Shown here: in pieces, positions 5,152 through 32,882 of the stretch
Position numbering within the stretch: the stretch's first letter is position 1
Layout of the letters: each line of letters opens with the position of its first letter
Assembly: GCA_027459745.1 (NCBI GenBank)
Contig: DAIDHL010000010.1
Location: forward strand, 1-49,821
Source: Candidatus Levyibacteriota bacterium
Lineage (GTDB): Bacteria > Patescibacteriota > Microgenomatia > Levybacterales > UBA12049
DNA: 49,821 nucleotides
Direction: 5' to 3'
Notes under the pieces: model-generated
What the model was told of the DNA's origin: nothing
The model's database searches: none
What the model saw: only the letters and a program-made list of their open reading frames with translations
Program-made: the position numbers and the translations under genes

Positions 5152-6369
5152 TCAATTTACTTTTACCTGTCCGTTCATAAGCATAGGTAAAAGCCAATCT
5201 CTTAATTCTGATAATTGATAGTTCTGTTTTAAGTTAGAATTGTGTTTTTCAAACATAGGTGATATAAGTTTGTTAAATTCGTCAATTAACTTTATTTTTG
5301 GCAAAACCAATGGCATTCTATTTAATGTTTCTTGATTTACATTTTGCATAATAGTACCAGTAGACTTTGATGTAGTCGAACGTTCTAAGTCCTTCAAGCA
5401 AAAAAATAGGTAAATTTTGTATTTCAGGTCAATAACTTGGTAACGAATAATAAAGCCGCAGTAGATAGTGTTCTGAGCATACTCATACATAATACGAGTT
5501 GCACCGGGGATCCCGCTACGCGCAATAATAATATCCTTATCAGTTACTAAATAATTCTTCACATCTGAATATGGAAGGACAATCGTATCGAGTTCATATT
5601 GAGAAACAAACCAAGTGGAACTACTAATATTTCTTACATTAATTATTTTTGCTTCTACATCACCTTTTATGGATGGATCATAATTAATACCATTTTTAAA
5701 TTTTCCCAATTTTTCTAACCTAATCGTTGCCCATTCGTCTGGTATTTCTCTTTTTAGTTCTTCACTCCATACCATTTTTCCACCACTGGTTTTATACGGT
5801 TTCCCCTCACTGTTTGGAAAATCAAATTGTACGAACCAATAATTAAACAAAGTTTTTGCTATCGCTTCTAATTCAGCATTAATTTTATTGTTAAGTTCTA
5901 TTTTCGCATCAAGAGAAGAAAGAATTGAAGAAATTCTTTTTTGAGTGCTTAAGTCGTAGTTGGGGATAATATAGTTCAAAATTTGTTCTTTATCACCTCT
6001 GGGCATCTTAGATCCTTTTGACCCCTTCATCATATGGATAAAAAAATCATCTCTGAACATGTTGTAATAAATAAACTTTGAATCGAAGCTTTCATTAACC
6101 TGAAAGTTCAGAACATCTGCGGAACAGCCTCCACTTCTATCTGCATACCAAATTTTTTTGAGATAAGGTCTTATATTTGCCACTAGAATATGACCGTGAT
6201 TAAATGTTGATATGTTTGTTCCATTTGGTGGAAGATTTGTTGCATTAACTATACCTTTTTTATTTTGCAAAATATTATCTGTTGTAATATAGTTACTAAT
6301 GGTAAAGTTAGAGAGTGGGGCTCTATTTTTTGAATAGATAACTGCTTTTTTGAGTTGAATATTATTCAT
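5152..6369 (-). CDS. hsdS: Type I restriction-modification specificity subunit HsdS
   Basis: Two target-recognition-like halves, 'ISSILSSLDAKIELNNKINAELEAIAKTLFNYWFVQFDFP' conserved helix, C-terminal 'LRDWLLPMLMNGQVKV'. Confidence 0.92.
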   Translation of the reverse strand: MNNIQLKKAVIYSKNRAPLSNFTISNYITTDNILQNKKGIVNATNLPPNGTNISTFNHGHILVANIRPYLKKIWYADRSGGCSADVLNFQVNESFDSKFIYYNMFRDDFFIHMMKGSKGSKMPRGDKEQILNYIIPNYDLSTQKRISSILSSLDAKIELNNKINAELEAIAKTLFNYWFVQFDFPNSEGKPYKTSGGKMVWSEELKREIPDEWATIRLEKLGKFKNGINYDPSIKGDVEAKIINVRNISSSTWFVSQYELDTIVLPYSDVKNYLVTDKDIIIARSGIPGATRIMYEYAQNTIYCGFIIRYQVIDLKYKIYLFFCLKDLERSTTSKSTGTIMQNVNQETLNRMPLVLPKIKLIDEFNKLISPMFEKHNSNLKQNYQLSELRDWLLPMLMNGQVKVN

Positions 6370-7981
6370 TATAGTTAAGGGTGTTCAGTTGTTTTTGGAT
6401 TTCATCTTCTAGTTTTTTTGATTCTTCAAAGTAGTCTTTGAGCCTTTTTTTAGAAAAAGCCATTTTTTCTTGAAATTCTTGGAAAGTTATATCAACGCAT
6501 TCAATCTTTACTTCAAAATACTGCCCAGCATTAAAACTATAGTTATTTTTTTTAATCTCATCAAAATTTGCAAATATAGAAAAATCTTCTATTGACTTAC
6601 CGGCACTAAAGGCATCGATAATCTTTTGCTCCTCTTCGGGGCTAAGAACTGTTTTTTGGTTTTTACCATCTTTTACCTTGGTGCCAAGTCTAGATGCGTC
6701 AATTAGTACTACACTATCGGTATTTTTTTTGTCTATAAACATAACTGAGACATTTGTACCAGTAGTGGCAAATATATTTGGTGGCATGGATACTACACCT
6801 TTAAGCCATCTTTTCTCGATCAGTTTTTCTCTGATTTTTTTCTCGATACCATTTTTTGCAGTTAAAAAACCAGTCGGTACTACTACGGCTGCACGGCCAT
6901 TATCAGACAGGCTAAATATAATGTGCTGGAGGAACAACAGATAGATTGCCATATTATCCTTATCTTTATTAGGAATATTGGGAATACCCGCAAAAAAACG
7001 GTCATTAATGTTTGGTAGATTTACAATCTTTTCATGATCATCAGAAAAATCAATCTTGAATGGTGGGTTACTAACAACAAAATCAAACTTTTTAGTTATG
7101 TGTTTCGGTTCGGTGATAGTGTTCCCCTGAATAATGTGATCGATAGAATGACTGAGGTTATTCAAAATCAAATTAAGTCGCAATAGATTTGAAGATTTTT
7201 GAGAGATATCTTCAGAGTATATAGTACATCTATCCGGACTAATTTTGTGCGCAAGATTCATTAGAAGAGTGCCAGATCCTGCTGCTGGATCGTATACGGT
7301 CACATTGGATGGCCTACTGTCACCAACAAGAATTTCTGCCATAATCTTGGCTATTGAGTGTGGAGTGTAATACTCTGCATATTTACCACCGCCATCTTTG
7401 TTGTAATCTTTGATCATATATTCGAAGAGTGTCGAGAAAAAATCGAAACCTGCTGAAAAGAGTGCGTTGAAGTCAAATTTACTGTTGGCTAGTTTGTTGA
7501 CAAGTAAGCGAGCTGTTACGTCGTGTTTTGATTTGTCGTTTACTGCATCTTGAATAAGTTCTTCTTCAAAAAGGCGTATTTCAGTATCACCAGCTGTATG
7601 GACTGAAAAAATATCAGAATTATAAACAGCAATATCATTGAGTGTATCGTCAAATAATTTGGCAAAACCTTCGTCGTTTTGATGCTGGAAGAGATCCTCA
7701 AGCAAATGCTCTGGTTTAAGATGAGCTGACTTAGTACCAATCTTGATAATAAGGAGATCGTATTCCTTATCGCTAAGCTTTTTCAAATCTTCGTATGATC
7801 TAAGACTTGGATCTATCATACCCACTTCAAATAAAAACTTATCATTAAGAAATTTATAAAGGAAACTTTGAGTAACGATTTTATATTCATTTGCATCTCC
7901 CCCCAAACCAGCGCTGGAACAAATACCCTTAATGTCATCAATGAGTTTCTTGGCTTTGTTTGAAAATGCAGTTATATCCAT
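6362..7981 (-). CDS. hsdM: Type I restriction-modification methyltransferase HsdM
   Basis: 'YAEYYTPHSIAKIMAEIL', 'VYDPAAGSGTLL' and catalytic 'NPPF'; 8-nt overlap with hsdS. Confidence 0.95.
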   Translation of the reverse strand: MDITAFSNKAKKLIDDIKGICSSAGLGGDANEYKIVTQSFLYKFLNDKFLFEVGMIDPSLRSYEDLKKLSDKEYDLLIIKIGTKSAHLKPEHLLEDLFQHQNDEGFAKLFDDTLNDIAVYNSDIFSVHTAGDTEIRLFEEELIQDAVNDKSKHDVTARLLVNKLANSKFDFNALFSAGFDFFSTLFEYMIKDYNKDGGGKYAEYYTPHSIAKIMAEILVGDSRPSNVTVYDPAAGSGTLLMNLAHKISPDRCTIYSEDISQKSSNLLRLNLILNNLSHSIDHIIQGNTITEPKHITKKFDFVVSNPPFKIDFSDDHEKIVNLPNINDRFFAGIPNIPNKDKDNMAIYLLFLQHIIFSLSDNGRAAVVVPTGFLTAKNGIEKKIREKLIEKRWLKGVVSMPPNIFATTGTNVSVMFIDKKNTDSVVLIDASRLGTKVKDGKNQKTVLSPEEEQKIIDAFSAGKSIEDFSIFANFDEIKKNNYSFNAGQYFEVKIECVDITFQEFQEKMAFSKKRLKDYFEESKKLEDEIQKQLNTLNYNE

Positions 7982-7984
7982 AAG

Positions 7985-10900
7985 TTATTCTCCTTGATAT
8001 TCGTTCAAATATTCATCAGCCGTGAGAGCAATGAGACTCTTGATAATTCCAGCATCAACTTCATATTTCCCTGTTTGGAAACTTTCTAAGATATCTTCAC
8101 CCGTGGCTTGCCGGAAGTAACCAGAGTTAGCAAGTAAGTGTTGATTTTGTCCTAGTCGAGAGTCGATTCTCATCTTAGCATCGTTAAGGAGATTATATAG
8201 TGGCATATTGTCGCTTACTTTGCCAGATGACTGGATATTTTTGTAAATGACTGCGAGTTTTCGATCCCCCCCAAACTTTGCCATTAACATTGTGTTCTTA
8301 CGATTCAATTCTCGAATTTGATCAAATATCCGCAAGAGTTGCTCTGATTCAAATTTCATGGTATCTATGCTTTCTGAGTTTGGATCAATATTATGCTTAT
8401 GTAATAAATTAACAAATTCCTCATATAGAAGTATCCATTCACGATCTTTTTTATTTATATTTTTATCAAGCTCTGAACGCACTTTGCTTGCAAAGCTGTG
8501 GAGATCTTCTGAAAGTAATTTTAATTCTTCTTCACCAGTTTTAGTAAAAGTAAACACAACATCTTCTATCGCTGTGTTGAGAAGCTCTTGCGGATTTACG
8601 TCGTTCATAGCGTCTTTCAGATTAAGAAGTTTTAATCGGTCACTGACCATAGCTAATAATTTCGCCAGGAGCTTGAAATCGAGTTTTTCTAGAATCTCCG
8701 TATATCCAAGCAGACGGACGATATTGTAGATATCACGAGCTGATTCGAGTGCGTTTTTGAGTTTTTGAATTTGATGACGGTCATTAATAGCAGAAATTTG
8801 TCTACTAAATGTTTCAAGATTTTCCGTTGTAAAATCGGCAATCGCATTTTGCACTTCTGCAATTTTTTGATCTATCTCAGTCTTGCTCATGAACAATGAA
8901 CCAAAAATGTTGTTTGGATCTTCGTCGTCGAGATTTTCACTATATTCTTCATTAAGTTCGTGGAAATAAGCCTGGTTGGTGACTTCAAATTCTTCAGAAA
9001 TATCAGCAAAATCTACAACATAGCCAAGTTTAAAATTTTTGTATGGTCTATTAACACGGGTTAAAGTTTGAAGTAGGTTATGAGCTCGAATTTTTCTTCC
9101 TAGATAGAGCTTTTTTAGTCTTGGTGCATCAAATCCAGTAAGTAACATAGAGTAGACAAATAAAAAGTCGATTTTCCCATCTTTAAAATCTTTAACTTTC
9201 GTTCTGCGAGTTTCTTTGTCGTCTTCATCGTGAAGTATGAGTGCACCTGTTAATTTATGAGTTTCGACTGTTTCATTAAATAAATGAAACATCTCTCGTG
9301 CCTGCTCAGAACTATCGCAAACGACCATCCCACCTATAGATCTGTCGCCAAAACGAATGCGAGAATTGATAAAGTCGTTGGTTATATATTGAAGCATGGG
9401 AGAAACAAACTTTGGATGAGCATATAAATCTTTTTTACTAATATTACCATTTTGTACTTTGATATCATTAATAACTCCGCGGACTTTTTCTTTATAACTT
9501 GTTTCAATTTCTTCACGGAGAAGCCTTAGTGTATATCCGTCACGGATGGAATCATTATAGTAGTATTTGTGAATATAATCACCAAAAATATTTCGAGTCG
9601 TTTTGCTGTCTTCTTTTTGTGACGAATCCTTGATATCCCCATACTCGTCGTGATCCTTATAGATTATAAGCGGTGTACCTGTAAGAGCTATTTTGATGGA
9701 GTCCTTGTCTGAATTGTATAGATTAGCTAGAAAAGAACCTCTAGGATCATAACTTCGATGGGCTTCGTCAATGAAAAAAACTTTCTGTACATTGATGTTG
9801 TATCCACTGTCTCGAAGTGTATAAGTATCCTCACGAAATTTATGAATATTAACAACTGTGATTCCTTCAGAGGTAGTGTTATAACCAAAGTCAGCAATTA
9901 AAGCTTCTTTACTATCGATCGAGTGTACCACCAATCCTCTTTTGCTAAATTCTTCTTTTGCTTGTGTAGCAAGATCAAGACGATCAGCTATAAAATAAAA
10001 TTTTGGCATAATTCCTTTTTTGCCAAAATAATCTCTAAGTGAATATACATTATAAAATGACAAAGCAGTCTTACCTGATCCTTGGGTATGCCAGATTACC
10101 CCTCTTTTGATTCCATCCTCAAGCTTTGCTTTAATTGCTTTTGTTGCGAAGAATTGTGGATATCGCATGATATGTTTTTGGACGGTAACTTTACCACTAT
10201 TTTCATCAATTTCATTAACATAACATAGGCCATATTTCAGTAAATCTCTCAGCCTATTTTTACTAAACAGTGATGAGAGAATTCTATTGGTTGGTGTATC
10301 GATGTCTTTATTCGATATAAACTCTGGTGAGTGTTTAATAACTCTGCAATTATTATCAGCAAGAATGAAGTCTTCTGTATTTTCGTCGATATCTTTAATG
10401 TCATCAATATATTCTGACTTTTTTTTCTCACGAAAATTATTAAATGTAGTGTTAGTATTTTTTGCGGTTGTTGCATAAAATGCACCGATCAATTTGTGTT
10501 TGTCAGTGTCGTCATACTCCATATTATTGGAAAATACGATAAGCTGCGTAACGTTGATAAATTTCCTAAACTTATCATTTTTAAAGCGTGTATGAATTCG
10601 ATCTCGCTCAGCTTTGATCCCTTCTTGGTTGTTGGGCTTCTTTACTTCAATAAAAGCCAGAGGAAGGCCGTTAATAAAAATAGTAAGATCAGGACGAAAT
10701 TCATCCTCACCATTTTTATTAGTCAGTTCAGTAGTGACATAAAATGAGTTATTGGTGAAGTTATCCCAGTTTATGAGTCTCAGGTTTCCCTCTCCCTTAC
10801 CAAGTAATCGATTGTAGAATGCTCTACCTAAATCATCGTAGTTTAATTCTTCTTGTATGTTTTGCAGCTCTTGATTTATAGAATCTTCTGTGGATCCAGG

Positions 10901-11059
10901 ATTTAGTGCCCGGATTTGCTGTATGAATATGTTTGTAATAATATTTGTAGCTGAATCTAAAATATATTGTTTATCTTTAAGAGAAAAGTATATATAGCCA
11001 AGTCGTGTTAAATGAATTAATGCAGGAATTTTTACTCGTGTGTTTTCATTGAATGCCAT
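7985..11059 (-). CDS. hsdR: Type I restriction endonuclease HsdR
   Basis: Nuclease motif 'RPDLTIFINGLPLAFIEVKKP', Walker A 'WHTQGSGKT', 'DEAH', 'LTGTPL'. Confidence 0.95.
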   Translation of the reverse strand: MAFNENTRVKIPALIHLTRLGYIYFSLKDKQYILDSATNIITNIFIQQIRALNPGSTEDSINQELQNIQEELNYDDLGRAFYNRLLGKGEGNLRLINWDNFTNNSFYVTTELTNKNGEDEFRPDLTIFINGLPLAFIEVKKPNNQEGIKAERDRIHTRFKNDKFRKFINVTQLIVFSNNMEYDDTDKHKLIGAFYATTAKNTNTTFNNFREKKKSEYIDDIKDIDENTEDFILADNNCRVIKHSPEFISNKDIDTPTNRILSSLFSKNRLRDLLKYGLCYVNEIDENSGKVTVQKHIMRYPQFFATKAIKAKLEDGIKRGVIWHTQGSGKTALSFYNVYSLRDYFGKKGIMPKFYFIADRLDLATQAKEEFSKRGLVVHSIDSKEALIADFGYNTTSEGITVVNIHKFREDTYTLRDSGYNINVQKVFFIDEAHRSYDPRGSFLANLYNSDKDSIKIALTGTPLIIYKDHDEYGDIKDSSQKEDSKTTRNIFGDYIHKYYYNDSIRDGYTLRLLREEIETSYKEKVRGVINDIKVQNGNISKKDLYAHPKFVSPMLQYITNDFINSRIRFGDRSIGGMVVCDSSEQAREMFHLFNETVETHKLTGALILHDEDDKETRRTKVKDFKDGKIDFLFVYSMLLTGFDAPRLKKLYLGRKIRAHNLLQTLTRVNRPYKNFKLGYVVDFADISEEFEVTNQAYFHELNEEYSENLDDEDPNNIFGSLFMSKTEIDQKIAEVQNAIADFTTENLETFSRQISAINDRHQIQKLKNALESARDIYNIVRLLGYTEILEKLDFKLLAKLLAMVSDRLKLLNLKDAMNDVNPQELLNTAIEDVVFTFTKTGEEELKLLSEDLHSFASKVRSELDKNINKKDREWILLYEEFVNLLHKHNIDPNSESIDTMKFESEQLLRIFDQIRELNRKNTMLMAKFGGDRKLAVIYKNIQSSGKVSDNMPLYNLLNDAKMRIDSRLGQNQHLLANSGYFRQATGEDILESFQTGKYEVDAGIIKSLIALTADEYLNEYQGE

Positions 11060-11070
11060 AATTAACTGTT

Positions 11071-11104
11071 ATTATACGCTCTTTGGGGATGCTTGAGAAG
11101 CTAA
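11071..11104 (-). promoter_or_regulatory. hsdR promoter within a shared element
   Basis: Minus strand: TTAGCTTCTCAAGCATCCCCAAAGAGCGTATAAT; -10 TATAAT is 11 nt from the hsdR ATG. Matches the element at 15333-15366. Confidence 0.6.
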
Positions 11105-11110
11105 ATATTT

Positions 11111-11764
11111 CTATACAAAATCACTTCCTTGTTTATTTAATTCCAAATTCAACTTTTCGCAGACTTCAGGAGTCAGATGCGGATCAATCGGTCGATCTTG
11201 AATAATTTTATTCAGCCAAGATATACCAACCACAAAAACACCATCTTGTGGATGTTCTCCATAATGAACTTTTATCTTTCTATTTGTATATACTAAAATT
11301 GGAATTACCCAAATGTCTTCCTGCAAATTATCTTTTACAAACTTTCCAATTATTACCGCTTCTCTTTTGCTTTCTCTCAAATATTTTTCAAAATTATAAT
11401 CAAAAGACTTTTTAGACGTATTCTTTGCTTCAATAGCAAAAATTCCTGTCGGCCCAATCACTACAAAATCCACATTACCATACTGACCTGGCGCATAAAA
11501 ATCAGCAACATGTAAAAATTCTTTGGGTAATTTCTTTAATTCATCAAGTACTTTTTCCTCTCCTTCCGATCCTTTCACCCAACTGGGTAGCCAATCATTT
11601 TTTACCCAACTAAACATAAATAAAACTACGAGATCAGCGATAATTACCCACCAATATGTCATCCCTATCATCTTAAATTGAGCCAAGATAAACGCAAAAA
11701 TATCCAAGAGGACAATCGCAAAGATGCCTAGGAGAATCTGCAGGATATTAAATGATGGTCTCAC
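11111..11764 (-). CDS. NERD domain protein, membrane anchored
   Basis: N-terminal TM segments, then 'GSEGEEKVLDELKKLPKEFLHVADFYAPGQYGNVDFVVIGPTGIFAIEAKNT', typical NERD. Confidence 0.85.
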   Translation of the reverse strand: MRPSFNILQILLGIFAIVLLDIFAFILAQFKMIGMTYWWVIIADLVVLFMFSWVKNDWLPSWVKGSEGEEKVLDELKKLPKEFLHVADFYAPGQYGNVDFVVIGPTGIFAIEAKNTSKKSFDYNFEKYLRESKREAVIIGKFVKDNLQEDIWVIPILVYTNRKIKVHYGEHPQDGVFVVGISWLNKIIQDRPIDPHLTPEVCEKLNLELNKQGSDFV

Positions 11765-11839
11765 TTACCTATTACATGCCAACTGGACTACATTGTCAAC
11801 TATACTGTATTGCATACAATACTCTTGTATAATATAAAT

Positions 11840-12241
11840 ATGAAATTTAATGCGCTCATACCAGAACTATATGTCATAGACTTTGGCAAAAGTCTGGACT
11901 TTTATACCAAAACTCTTGAATTTAAACTTGAATATCAAAGGGATAATCCTAAGTTTGCCTTTATCTCCCACCAAGGCAGTCAGATTATGATCCAACAAGA
12001 TGATGACGATGAAGAATGGCATAATGCCAAAGCCGAATATCCCTATGGCCGAGGTCTAAATCTTGAAATCAAAACAGACAATATCGAAAAGATAATTGAG
12101 AATTTAAAACAGCATAATTATCCCCTCAAAAGAGGCTTACAAGAAAGTTCATATAACACAATCGACGGAGTCAAAAAACAAAAAGAAATCCTGGTCATGG
12201 ACCCCAGTGGTTATCTTCTCCGCTTCGCAGAGAAGAAGTAA
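11840..12241 (+). CDS. VOC/bleomycin-resistance-like protein
   Basis: 'MKFNALIPELYVIDFGKSLDFYTKTLEFKLEYQR...VMDPSGYLLRFAEKK'. ATG at 11840 chosen because TATAAT lies at 11828-11833. Confidence 0.85.
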   Translation: MKFNALIPELYVIDFGKSLDFYTKTLEFKLEYQRDNPKFAFISHQGSQIMIQQDDDDEEWHNAKAEYPYGRGLNLEIKTDNIEKIIENLKQHNYPLKRGLQESSYNTIDGVKKQKEILVMDPSGYLLRFAEKK

Positions 12242-12389
12242 CGTATAAGTTTTTTATTTGGAATCTCCAAAATGTCTCCGTGGTTAATTATAGTTATGTT
12301 TTGGACACGCGGTCACTTTATATATGAGATATCCTGAATATTTAATATGATTGCGATCGAATATAAAACAAACGCCACAAGCATAGTAG

Positions 12390-12692
12390 CTATAATTGTT
12401 TCAAATATAGTAACAAATAATAACTTTTTATTTTTTTAGGTTTATAAAATTCATAAGTTGTTTTGTAACAGAGCTTAAATATATATACCAATAACAATAT
12501 ACCTGAAATTACTGTCAGAATAATGAATTCATATTCAATATATGCATATTGAGCTTCTTTCTCAACAAATAAAACTAAGTTTTTTGCGACTCCAAATAAA
12601 ACTCCAAAAAGTGCAACCCAGGTAATTAACTTGAACCAATTATCTGTGATCTTCTCTATATTCTCCCAAATTCTCTTCCTATTATTTTTCAT
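12390..12692 (-). CDS. Small membrane protein; likely frameshifted (coding signal continues to ~12313)
   Basis: Hydrophobic segments; last gene of the HsdM-KilA-N operon, 3 nt after the preceding gene. See finding on the A7 tract. Confidence 0.55.
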   Translation of the reverse strand: MKNNRKRIWENIEKITDNWFKLITWVALFGVLFGVAKNLVLFVEKEAQYAYIEYEFIILTVISGILLLVYIFKLCYKTTYEFYKPKKIKSYYLLLYLKQL

Positions 12693-12695
12693 ATC

Positions 12696-12989
12696 TTAAT
12701 TCATTGCATATCTTCTTCTAATTTCCTCAATTATTTCTACATTCTCCTCGTTTTCTCCTGTCTCTATATAGCGATTAATCGGATATCGGCACTTATCGCA
12801 TTTCCCTCTCAAAATTATATCGTCAAGATCGTTAATCTCCACAGTATAATCCACGATCGTAGAATCGTACGCACTATTACACTTAGAACAATAACAATTG
12901 TGGATTATCTTTTCTTGAAAGATTTTCCATTCCTCACCCATGATCTTATGAAAATCTTCCAGGATTATCGATACTATTTCTTTCTGCAT
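12696..12989 (-). CDS. Cys-rich (zinc-ribbon-like) small protein
   Basis: Two CxxC pairs ('CYCSKCNSAYDS' and 'KCDKCRYP'); 13 nt downstream of the KilA-N gene. Confidence 0.6.
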   Translation of the reverse strand: MQKEIVSIILEDFHKIMGEEWKIFQEKIIHNCYCSKCNSAYDSTIVDYTVEINDLDDIILRGKCDKCRYPINRYIETGENEENVEIIEEIRRRYAMN

Positions 12990-13001
12990 AATTCCTCTTA
13001 C

Positions 13002-13835
13002 TTATCCCTCTCTTTCCAATCTCTTTACACTCGGATTATTCAATAGCGATTTCATTTGGGTTATTGCGCTTGCGTTGAGTTTACGAAGTCTTTCATTTTG
13101 TGACAAACCGGCGCGGATATATTCAGCATTCAAACTTTCTAAATTCGCCAGACAGACTAATTGCGTTACATCGGCATAATCGCGAATATTCCCTTCTGTT
13201 TTGGGATTCTTATCACGCCACTCTTTGGCTGTCATACCAAATAATGCAACATTTAGCACATCTGCTTCATTGGCATAAATGATAGTCTCTTTTTGTTTTG
13301 AGATGAAAGGAGGAATTAGATTCTCTTTTATGGCATCTGTATGAATATGATAATTTATCTTTGTAAGTAATCGTTTTGCATCCCATCCGAGAATCAAACG
13401 TTCGTTCTCCTCATCTTTGAGTCTTTGAAATTCTTTAATCAAAAAGAGTTTAAATTCAGGACTTATCCACGTAGCGAATTCGAATGCGATGTCTTTATGA
13501 GCAAAAGTACCACCACCATAGCGACCTGCTTTTGAAACCAAACCCATAGCCTTTGTCGACTCAACCCATCTTTGTGGCGTCAATGAAAAACTATTTAGTC
13601 CCGCTTGGCTTTTAAAGGCATCGAATTCGATGCTTTTAAACTGAGGATTATTTAATTTCTCCCAAAGACCGAGAAATTCAATAGTATCGCGATTTCTCAT
13701 CCAGTTTTGGATAATATAATTAGTTCGTTCTTTATCTTTATACCTGGCTATATCAGTAAGCGAGATAAAGTCCTTTTCATTTTTTTTAAACGTAACTACT
13801 TCTAGTCCTTTGACAATGATCGTTTTATTTTTCAT
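13002..13835 (-). CDS. KilA-N domain protein
   Basis: 'FISLTDIARYKDKERTNYIIQNWMRNRDTIEFLGLWEKLNNPQFKSIEFD...SPQRWVESTKAMGLVSKAGRYGGGTFAHKDIAFEFATWISPEFKLFLIKEFQRLK' pattern of KilA-N (residues quoted from the supplied ORF, with the stretch before 'PQRW' reading 'SFSLTPQRW'). Confidence 0.9.
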   Translation of the reverse strand: MKNKTIIVKGLEVVTFKKNEKDFISLTDIARYKDKERTNYIIQNWMRNRDTIEFLGLWEKLNNPQFKSIEFDAFKSQAGLNSFSLTPQRWVESTKAMGLVSKAGRYGGGTFAHKDIAFEFATWISPEFKLFLIKEFQRLKDEENERLILGWDAKRLLTKINYHIHTDAIKENLIPPFISKQKETIIYANEADVLNVALFGMTAKEWRDKNPKTEGNIRDYADVTQLVCLANLESLNAEYIRAGLSQNERLRKLNASAITQMKSLLNNPSVKRLEREG

Positions 13836-15318
13836 ATCCTAACTCCCTTATAAATCCTGCAACTTTTTTGTTAATTTCTTCCCTTTCTTTTTCCAGTGTT
13901 TGCAATTCTTTCCATACCTGCTTAACGTCAATATGCTCTTGCTCTTCATTGCTATCAATGTAACGTCTAACATTAAGGTTATAGTCGTTTTCCTCAACTT
14001 CTTTTATATTCACTACCCTTGCATACTTTTCTATATTTTTGTATCCATCGTATGCATTGATAATTTTTTCTATGTCTTGTGACCTGAGACTATTTTGATT
14101 TTTACCTTCAAGAAAATCTTTTTCTGCATCTATAATCAATATCTTTCCTTTTTTATGTTCAGGCTTGTTATTATTTAATATCCAAATAGCCGCGGGTATA
14201 CCAGTTCCGTAAAATAACTTTGAGGGTAATGCGATAATCGCATCAATTAAATCTTTCTTTATTATTTGCTCTCTAATTCTTCCTTCACTACCTCCCCGGA
14301 AAAGAACACCGTGAGGTAATACAATTCCTGCCCGACCATTTGTATTCATCGATTTGATGATATGAAGGACAAATGCATAATCAGCATTTTTCTGAGGTGG
14401 TTGATCATATCCAGCCGTACGGCTAAATTTATCATTTTTGAAAATACCAAATTCCCAATCTTTGATTGAATATGGTGGGTTAGCTACTACGATATCAAAC
14501 TTCTGCAAGTTGCCATTATTTGCAATGAATTGAGGCTTTGCTAAAGTATCTCCCCGTCTAATATCAGCACTATCCAATCCATGCAAAAACATATTAATCT
14601 TAGCAATCGCAAAGGTACTGATATTTAATTCTTGTCCATAGAGATAAAGTGTATTTGCAACTTGCTCCCCTGCTTTTTCCCGTAAATAATGATAGGCTTC
14701 TAATAAAAATCCCCCAGAACCTACTGCCGGATCATATATATGATCTTTTTGATGTGGTTTTACTATCTGTATAATCACACGCTCAACTTCACGAGGAGTA
14801 TAAAATTCTCCACCTTTCTTGCCAGCATCAGCCGCAAATTGTTTAATTAAATACTCATAAGCATCACCTAGAAGATCAGAACTAATATATGTATTGCCGA
14901 AATTGTATTGGGAAAAATGATTAATAAGCCTTTGAGTTGTTTCATTGGGAAAACGGTCTTTGTTGGCAAAATCTAAATCATCAAAAATCTTATCCAGCTT
15001 AGGACTATTTACATTCGTCAGAATGTCAAAAATCTCATTCAGCTTTTGTCCAATATTTTGTGAAGTCTCTTGTACCACCTGCCATTTGCAATTTCCGGGT
15101 ACCTGAAAACGATGATTATAATCTTCTTTGGCTAATTCTTCTTTACCAAATTCCTTAAGTATATTTTTGTACTCTTCATCCCAAACATCACTCATGCGTT
15201 TGTAGAACAACAAACCAAAAATATACTTTTTGTAGTCAGAGCTATCAATTTTTCCACGCAGAATATCCGCAGATTTCCAAAGAAATTGTTCTAATTGAGG
15301 TAAGGTAAGCTTATCCAT
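13825..15318 (-). CDS. HsdM-type N-6 adenine DNA methyltransferase (second, without hsdS/hsdR)
   Basis: 'GGEFYTPREVERVIIQIVKP', 'YDPAVGSGGFLLEAY', 'NPPYSIKDWEF'; N-terminal HsdM helical domain. Overlaps the KilA-N start by 11 nt. Confidence 0.95.
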   Translation of the reverse strand: MDKLTLPQLEQFLWKSADILRGKIDSSDYKKYIFGLLFYKRMSDVWDEEYKNILKEFGKEELAKEDYNHRFQVPGNCKWQVVQETSQNIGQKLNEIFDILTNVNSPKLDKIFDDLDFANKDRFPNETTQRLINHFSQYNFGNTYISSDLLGDAYEYLIKQFAADAGKKGGEFYTPREVERVIIQIVKPHQKDHIYDPAVGSGGFLLEAYHYLREKAGEQVANTLYLYGQELNISTFAIAKINMFLHGLDSADIRRGDTLAKPQFIANNGNLQKFDIVVANPPYSIKDWEFGIFKNDKFSRTAGYDQPPQKNADYAFVLHIIKSMNTNGRAGIVLPHGVLFRGGSEGRIREQIIKKDLIDAIIALPSKLFYGTGIPAAIWILNNNKPEHKKGKILIIDAEKDFLEGKNQNSLRSQDIEKIINAYDGYKNIEKYARVVNIKEVEENDYNLNVRRYIDSNEEQEHIDVKQVWKELQTLEKEREEINKKVAGFIRELGYEK

Positions 15319-30896: not shown

Positions 30897-31439
30897 TTAG
30901 CAACTTTTTTTATTTTTAACTAATATAATTACTTTTTCTACAGCCTCTTTTGCCGATCTGGCTCCTAAAACTTTTATCCTCCTCCTCTCATCTAAAAATG
31001 TTCCTGCTAATCTCTCACTCCACCCTCCGCTTTGAGCTAAAGCCACAATCGGAATATTAGCCTGATAAGCAATGGCCATTTCAGTCAATGTTCCTGAACC
31101 ACCATTAATGGTAATAACTGCATCGCAACTGTTAACTAAGACAAATTCTCTACCCCCACCGCGCTCCAAACCCGTGGCAATTACTGCGTCAATATTTTTC
31201 TCACGCACATCCAGGCCTTTACCATATGTCACCCCAATGACCAGACCCCCTGCTTTTTTGGCTCCCCGACAAGCTGCTTGAGAAAGAGAGTCTATATCTT
31301 TTTCCGCACCTATCAATAAGCTTGCTTTGTTTTGTGCGATTAAAAATCCTACTTCCTCAGCTAATTTTAATAACTCTTCAGAATGTACTATATCTGTACA
31401 TGAACCCATTACACCAATTTGTAATTGACGTTTTCTCAT
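30897..31439 (-). CDS. TIGR00725 / LOG-like (SLOG superfamily) Rossmann protein
   Basis: 'IGVMGSCTD', 'ADKDIDSLSQAA'-like region (given as 'GAEKDIDSLSQAACRGAKKAGGLVIGVTYGKG'), 'VLVNSCDAVITINGGSGTLTEMAIAYQANIPIVAL'. Confidence 0.85.
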   Translation of the reverse strand: MRKRQLQIGVMGSCTDIVHSEELLKLAEEVGFLIAQNKASLLIGAEKDIDSLSQAACRGAKKAGGLVIGVTYGKGLDVREKNIDAVIATGLERGGGREFVLVNSCDAVITINGGSGTLTEMAIAYQANIPIVALAQSGGWSERLAGTFLDERRRIKVLGARSAKEAVEKVIILVKNKKSC

Positions 31440-31441
31440 AG

Positions 31442-32500
31442 CTACATCCTTTCTCTTTTGAGTCTACCATTTTCTCCTACAAAATCTAATCTGGTTTCAT
31501 GTGACACTTCTTGTTCTCTGCTCACCTCTTGTAATTCCCTGATGGTTTCACATATTTCTGTTTTGTGTTCTCTCAACTGTTGCTGTCTCACTCTTCGAGA
31601 AAAAGACGGCATCAACCAGTTAGGTATATTTCTGTCAAAAAATGAATTTTTATTTAGGCCATTCTGAGCGACCACTTTTCCTTCTGACTGTAACATCTTC
31701 ATTTCTTGTGTGCCTATAGCCTTGGGAAACAGGGTCTCACGCTGGACTGTAAGAATATCTTTTATTTCTCTCTCTATACTTTGTTTACTTGTCTCGTCGG
31801 CAATAACTAATCTCTCGCGCAAGGATTGTAGATGAATAATGAGATCAAACACTTCCGTCCGTCCAAGACCTGGGTGGTCAAAAAAATCCACTAAATGAAA
31901 TCCATCATCTTGCGGTGTCTGCACCATACTTCCTGCCAAAACTTGAGCTCCTGCTTGTTCCAACATTCTTGTTCCACCTGGTCTGTCTGGTCCGAAATTT
32001 CCCATATTGGCCGTAATAAAAGCAAATGTTGCCTTTTCCATATCTACGCCCAGCAATCTTGCTGCATCGATCATAGTACGCCCTGACCAACCAACATCGT
32101 CTAGAAATAATGTTTGGGATAAATCCAAAGATTCACGCAATGATTGAATTTGTCTCGTCCCCAACGACACGAAATGCCCAATCCCATCCACGCGGGGAGA
32201 AGAGACAACTCTAACACGACTTAGATGCAAGTCTCCTCTAATGGTTGTCTGAGGAAAGATGTCTACTAATTGACGCTGCATTTGTCCTGACAGATCAATG
32301 ATCGTACTGAAAGAGCGTGTGCTTAATTCACCTTGCAGTGCCTGCAAATGTGAAATGGGATCCACAATTAGATTCTCGAAATCCGGATGGCCAACACGCT
32401 GAATCAGTCTTCGCGTAAGTACATCTAATCTACCCCAATCTCGGGGATCCGTACGTAGCTTTGCGCTATCTTGAAACCATAATATTCGTTGTTTGTTCAT
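31442..32500 (-). CDS. PRTase-like protein under T-box control
   Basis: PRPP-loop-like motif 'SLDLSQTLFLDDVGWSGRTMIDAARLLG'; directly downstream of the T-box leader and 2 nt from the TIGR00725 gene. Confidence 0.65.
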   Translation of the reverse strand: MNKQRILWFQDSAKLRTDPRDWGRLDVLTRRLIQRVGHPDFENLIVDPISHLQALQGELSTRSFSTIIDLSGQMQRQLVDIFPQTTIRGDLHLSRVRVVSSPRVDGIGHFVSLGTRQIQSLRESLDLSQTLFLDDVGWSGRTMIDAARLLGVDMEKATFAFITANMGNFGPDRPGGTRMLEQAGAQVLAGSMVQTPQDDGFHLVDFFDHPGLGRTEVFDLIIHLQSLRERLVIADETSKQSIEREIKDILTVQRETLFPKAIGTQEMKMLQSEGKVVAQNGLNKNSFFDRNIPNWLMPSFSRRVRQQQLREHKTEICETIRELQEVSREQEVSHETRLDFVGENGRLKRERM

Positions 32501-32510
32501 AGTTTTTCAC

Positions 32511-32847
32511 AAAAAAACCTCGCCCTCATCTATCACATTCTCGTAGATAGACAAGGGCGAGGCTTCTCGCGGTACCACCTTGCTTTGCTAATAGCTAAAA
32601 AAAAGACCCTTTGCGGGTCTTAAAATTATGACTAAATTAGCCTCATTTCAAGTGCTCCGTTTCCGACACACTTTTTCAGCTATAACGGGCTTACCCGTAA
32701 ATCTTAATGACTTGCGCTTTAGGATTTCGACTCCAGAGAGTAATTCGAAGATATTAAGTTCGGGGAGTCTTTCATCAACCGCTCCCTTTCTGATGTCACC
32801 TTAATTCTCTACTTCTTCTCCTTCATAGTCTTTCTTATTAAATTGTA
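32511..32847 (-). promoter_or_regulatory. T-box riboswitch leader
   Basis: Minus strand: T-box AAGGTGGTACCGCGAGAAGCCTCGCCCTT (around 32555-32581), mutually exclusive terminator CCTCGCCC...GGGCGAGG + T7, Stem I distal loop-like AGAAAGGGAGCGGTTGATGAAAGACTCCC, specifier region GAATTACTCTCTGG. Confidence 0.92.
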
Positions 32848-32853
32848 GAAATT

Positions 32854-32882
32854 ACTATAACACCTAAATTTCTTTTTGTCAA
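32854..32882 (-). promoter_or_regulatory. Consensus promoter for the T-box leader
   Basis: TTGACA (32877-32882), 17-nt spacer, TATAGT (32854-32859), minus strand. Confidence 0.85.

Follow-up and report, generated by a model that had tools for sequence, protein, structure and literature searches.

A predicted tRNA-sensing leader, a gene for a phosphoribosyltransferase (PRTase)-like protein and a gene for a SLOG-family protein follow one another on the minus strand of the 49,821-nucleotide stretch of DNA analyzed here (the window, whose coordinates are used throughout; all features of the leader and operon are on that strand). The source genome, which belongs to the Levybacteria (Patescibacteria), comprises 1.37 Mb in 22 contigs, is 97% complete and has 44 tRNA genes. 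Patescibacteria have reduced genomes, and their nutrients must come from other cells. The leader gave the sole Rfam match across the whole window, and a search of the whole source genome revealed no second T-box. Elsewhere in the window, positions 5152-15318 carry genes that by eye resemble those of a type I restriction-modification system (HsdS/HsdM/HsdR-like), with a second HsdM-like gene close by.

Transcription of the leader would begin at a sigma-70-like promoter, in which the -35 hexamer TTGACA (32877..32882) and the -10 hexamer TATAGT (32854..32859) are separated by a 17-nt spacer and agree with the consensus at 11 of 12 positions. The initial annotation had marked this promoter, which a promoter check found to be present, and the T-box leader it had also called was borne out by cmscan: the RF00230 model (positions 1-219) matches 32550..32835 with 98.7 bits against a gathering threshold of 93 (E 1.3e-20). 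Stem I (32729..32830), delimited from the covariance-model alignment and from covariation in 18 leaders, holds a k-turn, loop E (AGUA/GAA) and the distal T-loop motif GCGGUUGAUGAAAG. Across these 18 related leaders 92.6% of the Stem I cells are paired, both sides have changed in 13 of 15 pairs, and the covariation score was reached by none of 500 shuffles, which demonstrates that the T-box is not a chance resemblance. Stem II (32699..32727) also aligns to RF00230, with an S-turn whose letters differ from the usual GAA/AGUA form. The Stem IIA/B pseudoknot element ACGGGUAAGCCCGUUA (F-box; 32683..32698), placed by the same alignment, is common to relatives, and between it and Stem III lies a conserved hairpin AGUGUGUCGGAAACGGAGCACUU (32650..32672) that many other leaders in the class share.

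The T-box sequence itself, AAGGUGGUACCGCG, is located at 32568..32581 by sequence and model alignment and includes UGGU (32574-32577), which is predicted to pair with the 3' ACCA of tRNA. Folding places the antiterminator at 32551..32584 and the switch terminator, T2, at 32511..32563, with energies of about -13 and about -38 kcal/mol, respectively. The overlap of the two described in the initial annotation was found in the strand GCCUCGCCCUUGUC, which is common to both and makes the predicted structures mutually exclusive. Similar competition is evident in most of 24 folded leaders, the terminators of L038, L061 and L073 being unresolved among these folds (the wrong U-run was taken, or none was found). 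The U-run of T2 ends at 32511 and the PRTase ATG is at 32500, a gap of 10 nt, in keeping with the terminator noted just before this start codon.

The genes under the leader

The first gene (31442..32500) encodes a 352-aa protein, recognized as a divergent type I PRTase from its motif, structural model and Foldseek matches; the second (30897..31439), which starts 2 nt after it, encodes a 180-aa SLOG cluster 4/TIGR00725-like protein of the LOG superfamily. The start codon of the PRTase gene is without a clear Shine-Dalgarno sequence. Examination of the open reading frame lists revealed no aminoacyl-tRNA synthetase or known biosynthetic gene between the leader and the PRTase, and the PRTase-like and TIGR00725/LOG-like identities first assigned to the downstream genes have both held.

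No Pfam or NCBIfam family matches the 352-aa protein, a sequence search against solved structures gave nothing useful for it, and Pribosyltran was matched by two of seven PRTase homologues (best E 0.0084) and not by the window protein. It does carry the PRPP motif LFLDDVGWSGRT, of which D134, D135, S139, G140 and T142 are invariant in the homologues. An AlphaFold2 model built from seven sequences has a mean pLDDT of 86.8 (the other four models, 57-66), and its best PDB matches in Foldseek are type I PRTases (E 7.6e-5; TM-score by target up to 0.58), by which the predicted structure confirms the PRTase-like identity at the fold level. The DDVxxSGxT PRPP motif and core fold are shared with the uracil, adenine and purine enzymes of this type, from which the window protein differs in its 9-16% identity in the matches, in its extra N- and C-terminal parts and in having no Pfam family.

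The SLOG protein matches PF18306 with E 8.9e-32 (110 bits, against a cut-off of 26.3) and TIGR00725 with E 6.1e-25, a score below the TIGR00725 cut-off that sets it apart from members of that family. It has the GGxGTxxE motif and distant sequence matches to the Moco carrier protein and LOG enzymes, and in PF18306 and this motif it resembles the LOG/SLOG cluster 4 proteins (TIGR00725, Moco carrier protein, cytokinin riboside 5'-monophosphate phosphoribohydrolase). A PRTase attaches a base to PRPP, and enzymes of the LOG type release one from a nucleoside monophosphate; base salvage or base exchange is accordingly a fair guess for the pair, and no more. A place in a defence system was considered and set aside: PADLOC had no hit to the PRTase and, for the SLOG protein, nothing beyond PsyrA at E 0.0044, and Pfam PRTase-CE matched only at E 0.057.

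Specifier and cognate tRNA

As read from comparative alignment, the specifier is UAC (tyrosine) at 32740..32742, within GAA-U-UAC-U. The class leaders that have a full Stem I and a specifier loop like that of the window form a set of 36 full-length sequences, in all of which the loop is GAA-N-UAC, with N being U in 22, A in 12, and G and C in one each; GAA and UAC are likewise invariant, and the intervening base variable, in the 18-row alignment. Pfam identifies tyrS (PF00579) at most 1.5 kb downstream of such leaders in L038, L040, L042 and L061, tyrS follows further such leaders as judged by translation reading only, and 11 of the 36 have a tRNA-Tyr(GUA) gene beyond the terminator. The same register gives AGA in leaders ahead of argG (L007) and of tRNA-Arg(UCU) (L016, L174, L175). 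With the register fixed as GAA-N-UAC, the cognate tRNA would thus be tRNA-Tyr(GUA) and not an isoleucine or leucine tRNA. The tRNA-Tyr of the source genome, examined with the Rfam tRNA model and ARAGORN, has anticodon GUA and a discriminator A that matches UGGU, the base that the initial annotation had predicted. The default register of TBDB, which takes positions 2-4 as counted from the specifier bulge's end, agrees with UAC, as does the preference for a 3'-C over a 3'-U in the specifier (PMC7778990). The tyrS gene of the source genome (G000:C16:52461-53312) has no T-box and no long leader.

The specifier had at first been read as isoleucine (AUU, 32742-32744), with leucine (UUA) as the alternative register, and both readings gave way to tyrosine when the 36 leaders were aligned. 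A purine after the specifier is usual in T-boxes, as a preference and not a requirement; AUU is followed by A, which fits it, and UAC is followed by U in the window (C in 24, U in 9, G in 2 and A in 1 of the 36), which departs from it. However, AUU extends into the GAA of loop E, and relatives in which the first U of A-U-U has become A, G or C keep UAC and precede tyrS or tRNA-Tyr. Together with the disfavored 3'-U (PMC7778990), this makes isoleucine a very improbable reading. Leucine is slightly less probable again: UUA is found in 22 of the 36 leaders and the source genome does have a tRNA-Leu(UAA), but the other 14 have AUA, GUA or CUA at this place with UAC unchanged, often with tRNA-Tyr or tyrS downstream.

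Transfer RNA-Tyr bears Q34 in many bacteria, and a link of the operon to queuosine was entertained as an idea only, with nothing in the data to support it. Among similar leaders, the specifier loop is GAAUUACC in L044 and GAAUUAACC in L050, L056 and L064, which suggests a shift of register or specificity; the first open reading frames behind the leaders of L044, L050 and L064 are homologous.

The Stem III hairpin and T-boxes of related genomes

Between Stem IIA/B and the T-box, the leader contains a further hairpin, T1 (AAGACCCGCAAAGGGUCUU plus a U-run, 32597..32621), that is terminator-like by a simple scan. Sequence reading and the model alignment suggest an outer helix GCUAAU/AUUAGC around it (Stem III, 32587..32641), and T1 is read as the tip of Stem III. 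A T1-like hairpin, defined as a perfect stem with 5 or more pairs, at least 4 of them G-C, plus a U-run, is present in 30 of the 36 tyrosine leaders. Dinucleotide shuffles would lead one to expect 0.09 (at most 1 over 100 rounds). Most of these hairpins lie 21-34 nt ahead of the T-box GGUGG. The letters of T1 vary among loci and its shape is kept. Such hairpins are rarer elsewhere, being found in 15 of 81 other T-boxes of the class and 2 of 24 outside it. The hairpin may end transcription, may make RNA polymerase wait for tRNA, or may merely resemble a terminator; if it were a full terminator, transcription would stop before the T-box could act. An anti-T1 strand, formed from the T1 5' arm and IIA/B, appeared possible by eye in L001-L003 and was dropped, as it is absent in L038 and L039; no anti-T1 pairing common to the group was found.

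Matches to the T-box model occur in 31 of 82 genomes of the order (E <= 0.001), in about half of the genomes sampled from the class (182 of 374, with E <= 1e-4) and in 126 of 380 genomes of the phylum; by this measure, T-boxes are common in these bacteria, although few score above the Rfam cut-off and many have a short Stem I. The genes downstream include argG, argH, proS, ornithine cyclodeaminase, hisG, glyS, pheS and tyrS as judged by open reading frame reading (tyrS alone was checked with Pfam). Wels et al. (2008) recorded T-boxes in Firmicutes, Actinobacteria, Chloroflexi, Deinococcus-Thermus and two Proteobacteria (PMC2494555), and a literature search from which most subscription papers were missing found no earlier report of them in Patescibacteria.

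A limited group of accessory genes without an evident link to tyrosine also recurs behind tyrosine T-boxes. These encode an Asp/Glu racemase (L003, L079, L095), a methyltransferase with a MetE-like protein (L005, L053, L073), a methyltransferase-like protein (L051, L059, L062, L076, with a PLP enzyme as well in L051, L059 and L062) and a small kinase-like protein (L061, L074, L111).

At 17 of 117 class loci examined, the leader has a tRNA gene no more than about 330 nt away on its own strand, where chance would give about 0.5% (44 tRNAs in 1.37 Mb), and the amino acid of the tRNA matches the specifier in each case but the ambiguous L059; two of the 17, L108 and L114, look like one sequence in two genomes. 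A tyrosine T-box precedes tRNA-Tyr in L038, L040, L048, L051, L053, L076, L077, L079, L084, L092, L101, L108, L114 and L121, an arginine T-box precedes tRNA-Arg in L016, L174 and L175, and a phenylalanine T-box precedes its cognate tRNA in L110. The two arginine leaders L174 and L175 are outside the class, each ahead of three tRNA-Arg genes, and some of the T-box/tRNA loci continue into tyrS or pheS. In L040 the tRNA follows the terminator U-run after only about 10-15 nt, which leaves no room for a promoter. The same literature search, with its gap in subscription papers, found no report of T-boxes over tRNA genes. A T-box ahead of the gene for its own ligand would mean that uncharged tRNA raises the level of that tRNA, a possible positive loop that standard descriptions of T-boxes would not lead one to expect and that poses a testable puzzle. 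At L059:1948-2036, the tRNA-Tyr-like gene after a tyrosine T-box has the anticodon GUU according to ARAGORN; a partial duplication adjoins, and the copy may be altered.

The T-box, PRTase and SLOG genes occur together in three species: the source genome (G000), another member of its genus (G027, 69% identity) and G210 (46-48%). The PRTase homologues at L033, L035, L036 and L037 have no T-box and, where the contig permits a view, no SLOG neighbor; a contig scan for PRTase relatives found only two. In a tree of leaders, in which the deeper forks have weak support, the G000 leader groups with L002, L048 and L003 (L048 and L003 being over other genes) and that of G210 with L068 and L073. Since the G000 leader is closer to those of L048 and L003 (81-82% identity) than to that of G210, the PRTase-SLOG pair seems to have come under tyrosine T-boxes of two different lineages. 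Either leaders have passed from one operon to another or two separate recruitments of the gene pair took place, and both would favor a functional tie to tyrosine; horizontal transfer of parts may be a further reading of the tree. The PRTase relative at L033 has two terminator-like hairpins immediately before the gene.

A probable tyrosine-responsive switch and its rivals

Taken with the leader parts and the operon linkage, these comparisons make it very probable that a transcription-attenuating, tRNA-Tyr-specific T-box riboswitch controls the two-gene PRTase-SLOG operon in this Levybacteria genome. The binding of tRNA and the direction of regulation are those expected from the known T-box mechanism. 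When tyrosine is sufficient, charged tRNA-Tyr would fail to stabilize the antiterminator, T2 would form and transcription would end 10 nt short of the PRTase ATG. Under tyrosine shortage, the Stem I specifier UAC would be bound by uncharged tRNA-Tyr(GUA), the 3' ACCA of this tRNA would pair with UGGU, and the antiterminator would form, allowing the operon to be read. T-box genes are on when their tRNA is uncharged, so PRTase and SLOG should be made in tyrosine shortage. Several observations speak against this reading: the U after UAC, the atypical letters of the Stem II S-turn, the four PRTase homologues that have no T-box, and a T1 hairpin that, as a full terminator, would act too early. Such a switch would place a tRNA-sensing RNA in Patescibacteria and link an orphan enzyme pair to an amino acid, tyrosine.

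The leader might instead be decayed or misplaced, either a relic or one bypassed by a PRTase-SLOG operon read mainly from another promoter, so that the tie to tyrosine has no function. Relatives do carry the same type of leader over unrelated genes, the PRTase start codon has no clear Shine-Dalgarno sequence, and T1 could block the leader. Decay is hard to reconcile, however, with switch parts that are intact, a Stem I that covaries and a gene order that three species, whose proteins are 46-69% identical, retain under leaders of two lineages, and the 10 nt from the end of the T2 U-run to the ATG leave no room for another promoter there; a functionless leader is thus improbable. Contamination, by which a Gram-positive contig was binned into a Levybacteria genome, would accord with the Firmicutes being the best-known hosts of T-boxes, but similar leaders are present in other members of its genus, family and class, two of which share the operon, and this is the least probable of the explanations considered.

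Beyond the tyrosine switch itself, a wider proposal is plausible, if somewhat on the doubtful side: Patescibacteria may have a distinct branch of T-boxes with successive terminators (T1 in Stem III, then T2), used for aminoacyl-tRNA synthetases, amino-acid genes and the gene of the ligand tRNA itself, and the switch described here may drive a new PRTase/SLOG nucleotide pathway in the response to tyrosine shortage.

Among known systems, the leader most resembles the class I transcriptional T-box (RF00230) of the Bacillus subtilis tyrS type, with which it shares UAC in loop E of Stem I, the distal T-loop motif, IIA/B, the T-box UGGN, the exclusive antiterminator and terminator, and tyrosine specificity. 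It differs in its patescibacterial host, in its target (PRTase-SLOG instead of tyrS), in the terminator-like hairpin within Stem III and in its unusual S-turn and post-specifier base. An amino acid-specific T-box over genes that serve neither as aminoacyl-tRNA synthetases nor in transport or biosynthesis is also found at the B. subtilis anti-TRAP operon, and Wels et al. (2008) listed 8% of T-boxes as being without an apparent amino-acid gene (PMC2494555); the window is unlike these cases in the genes concerned and in a linkage that is repeated in three species.
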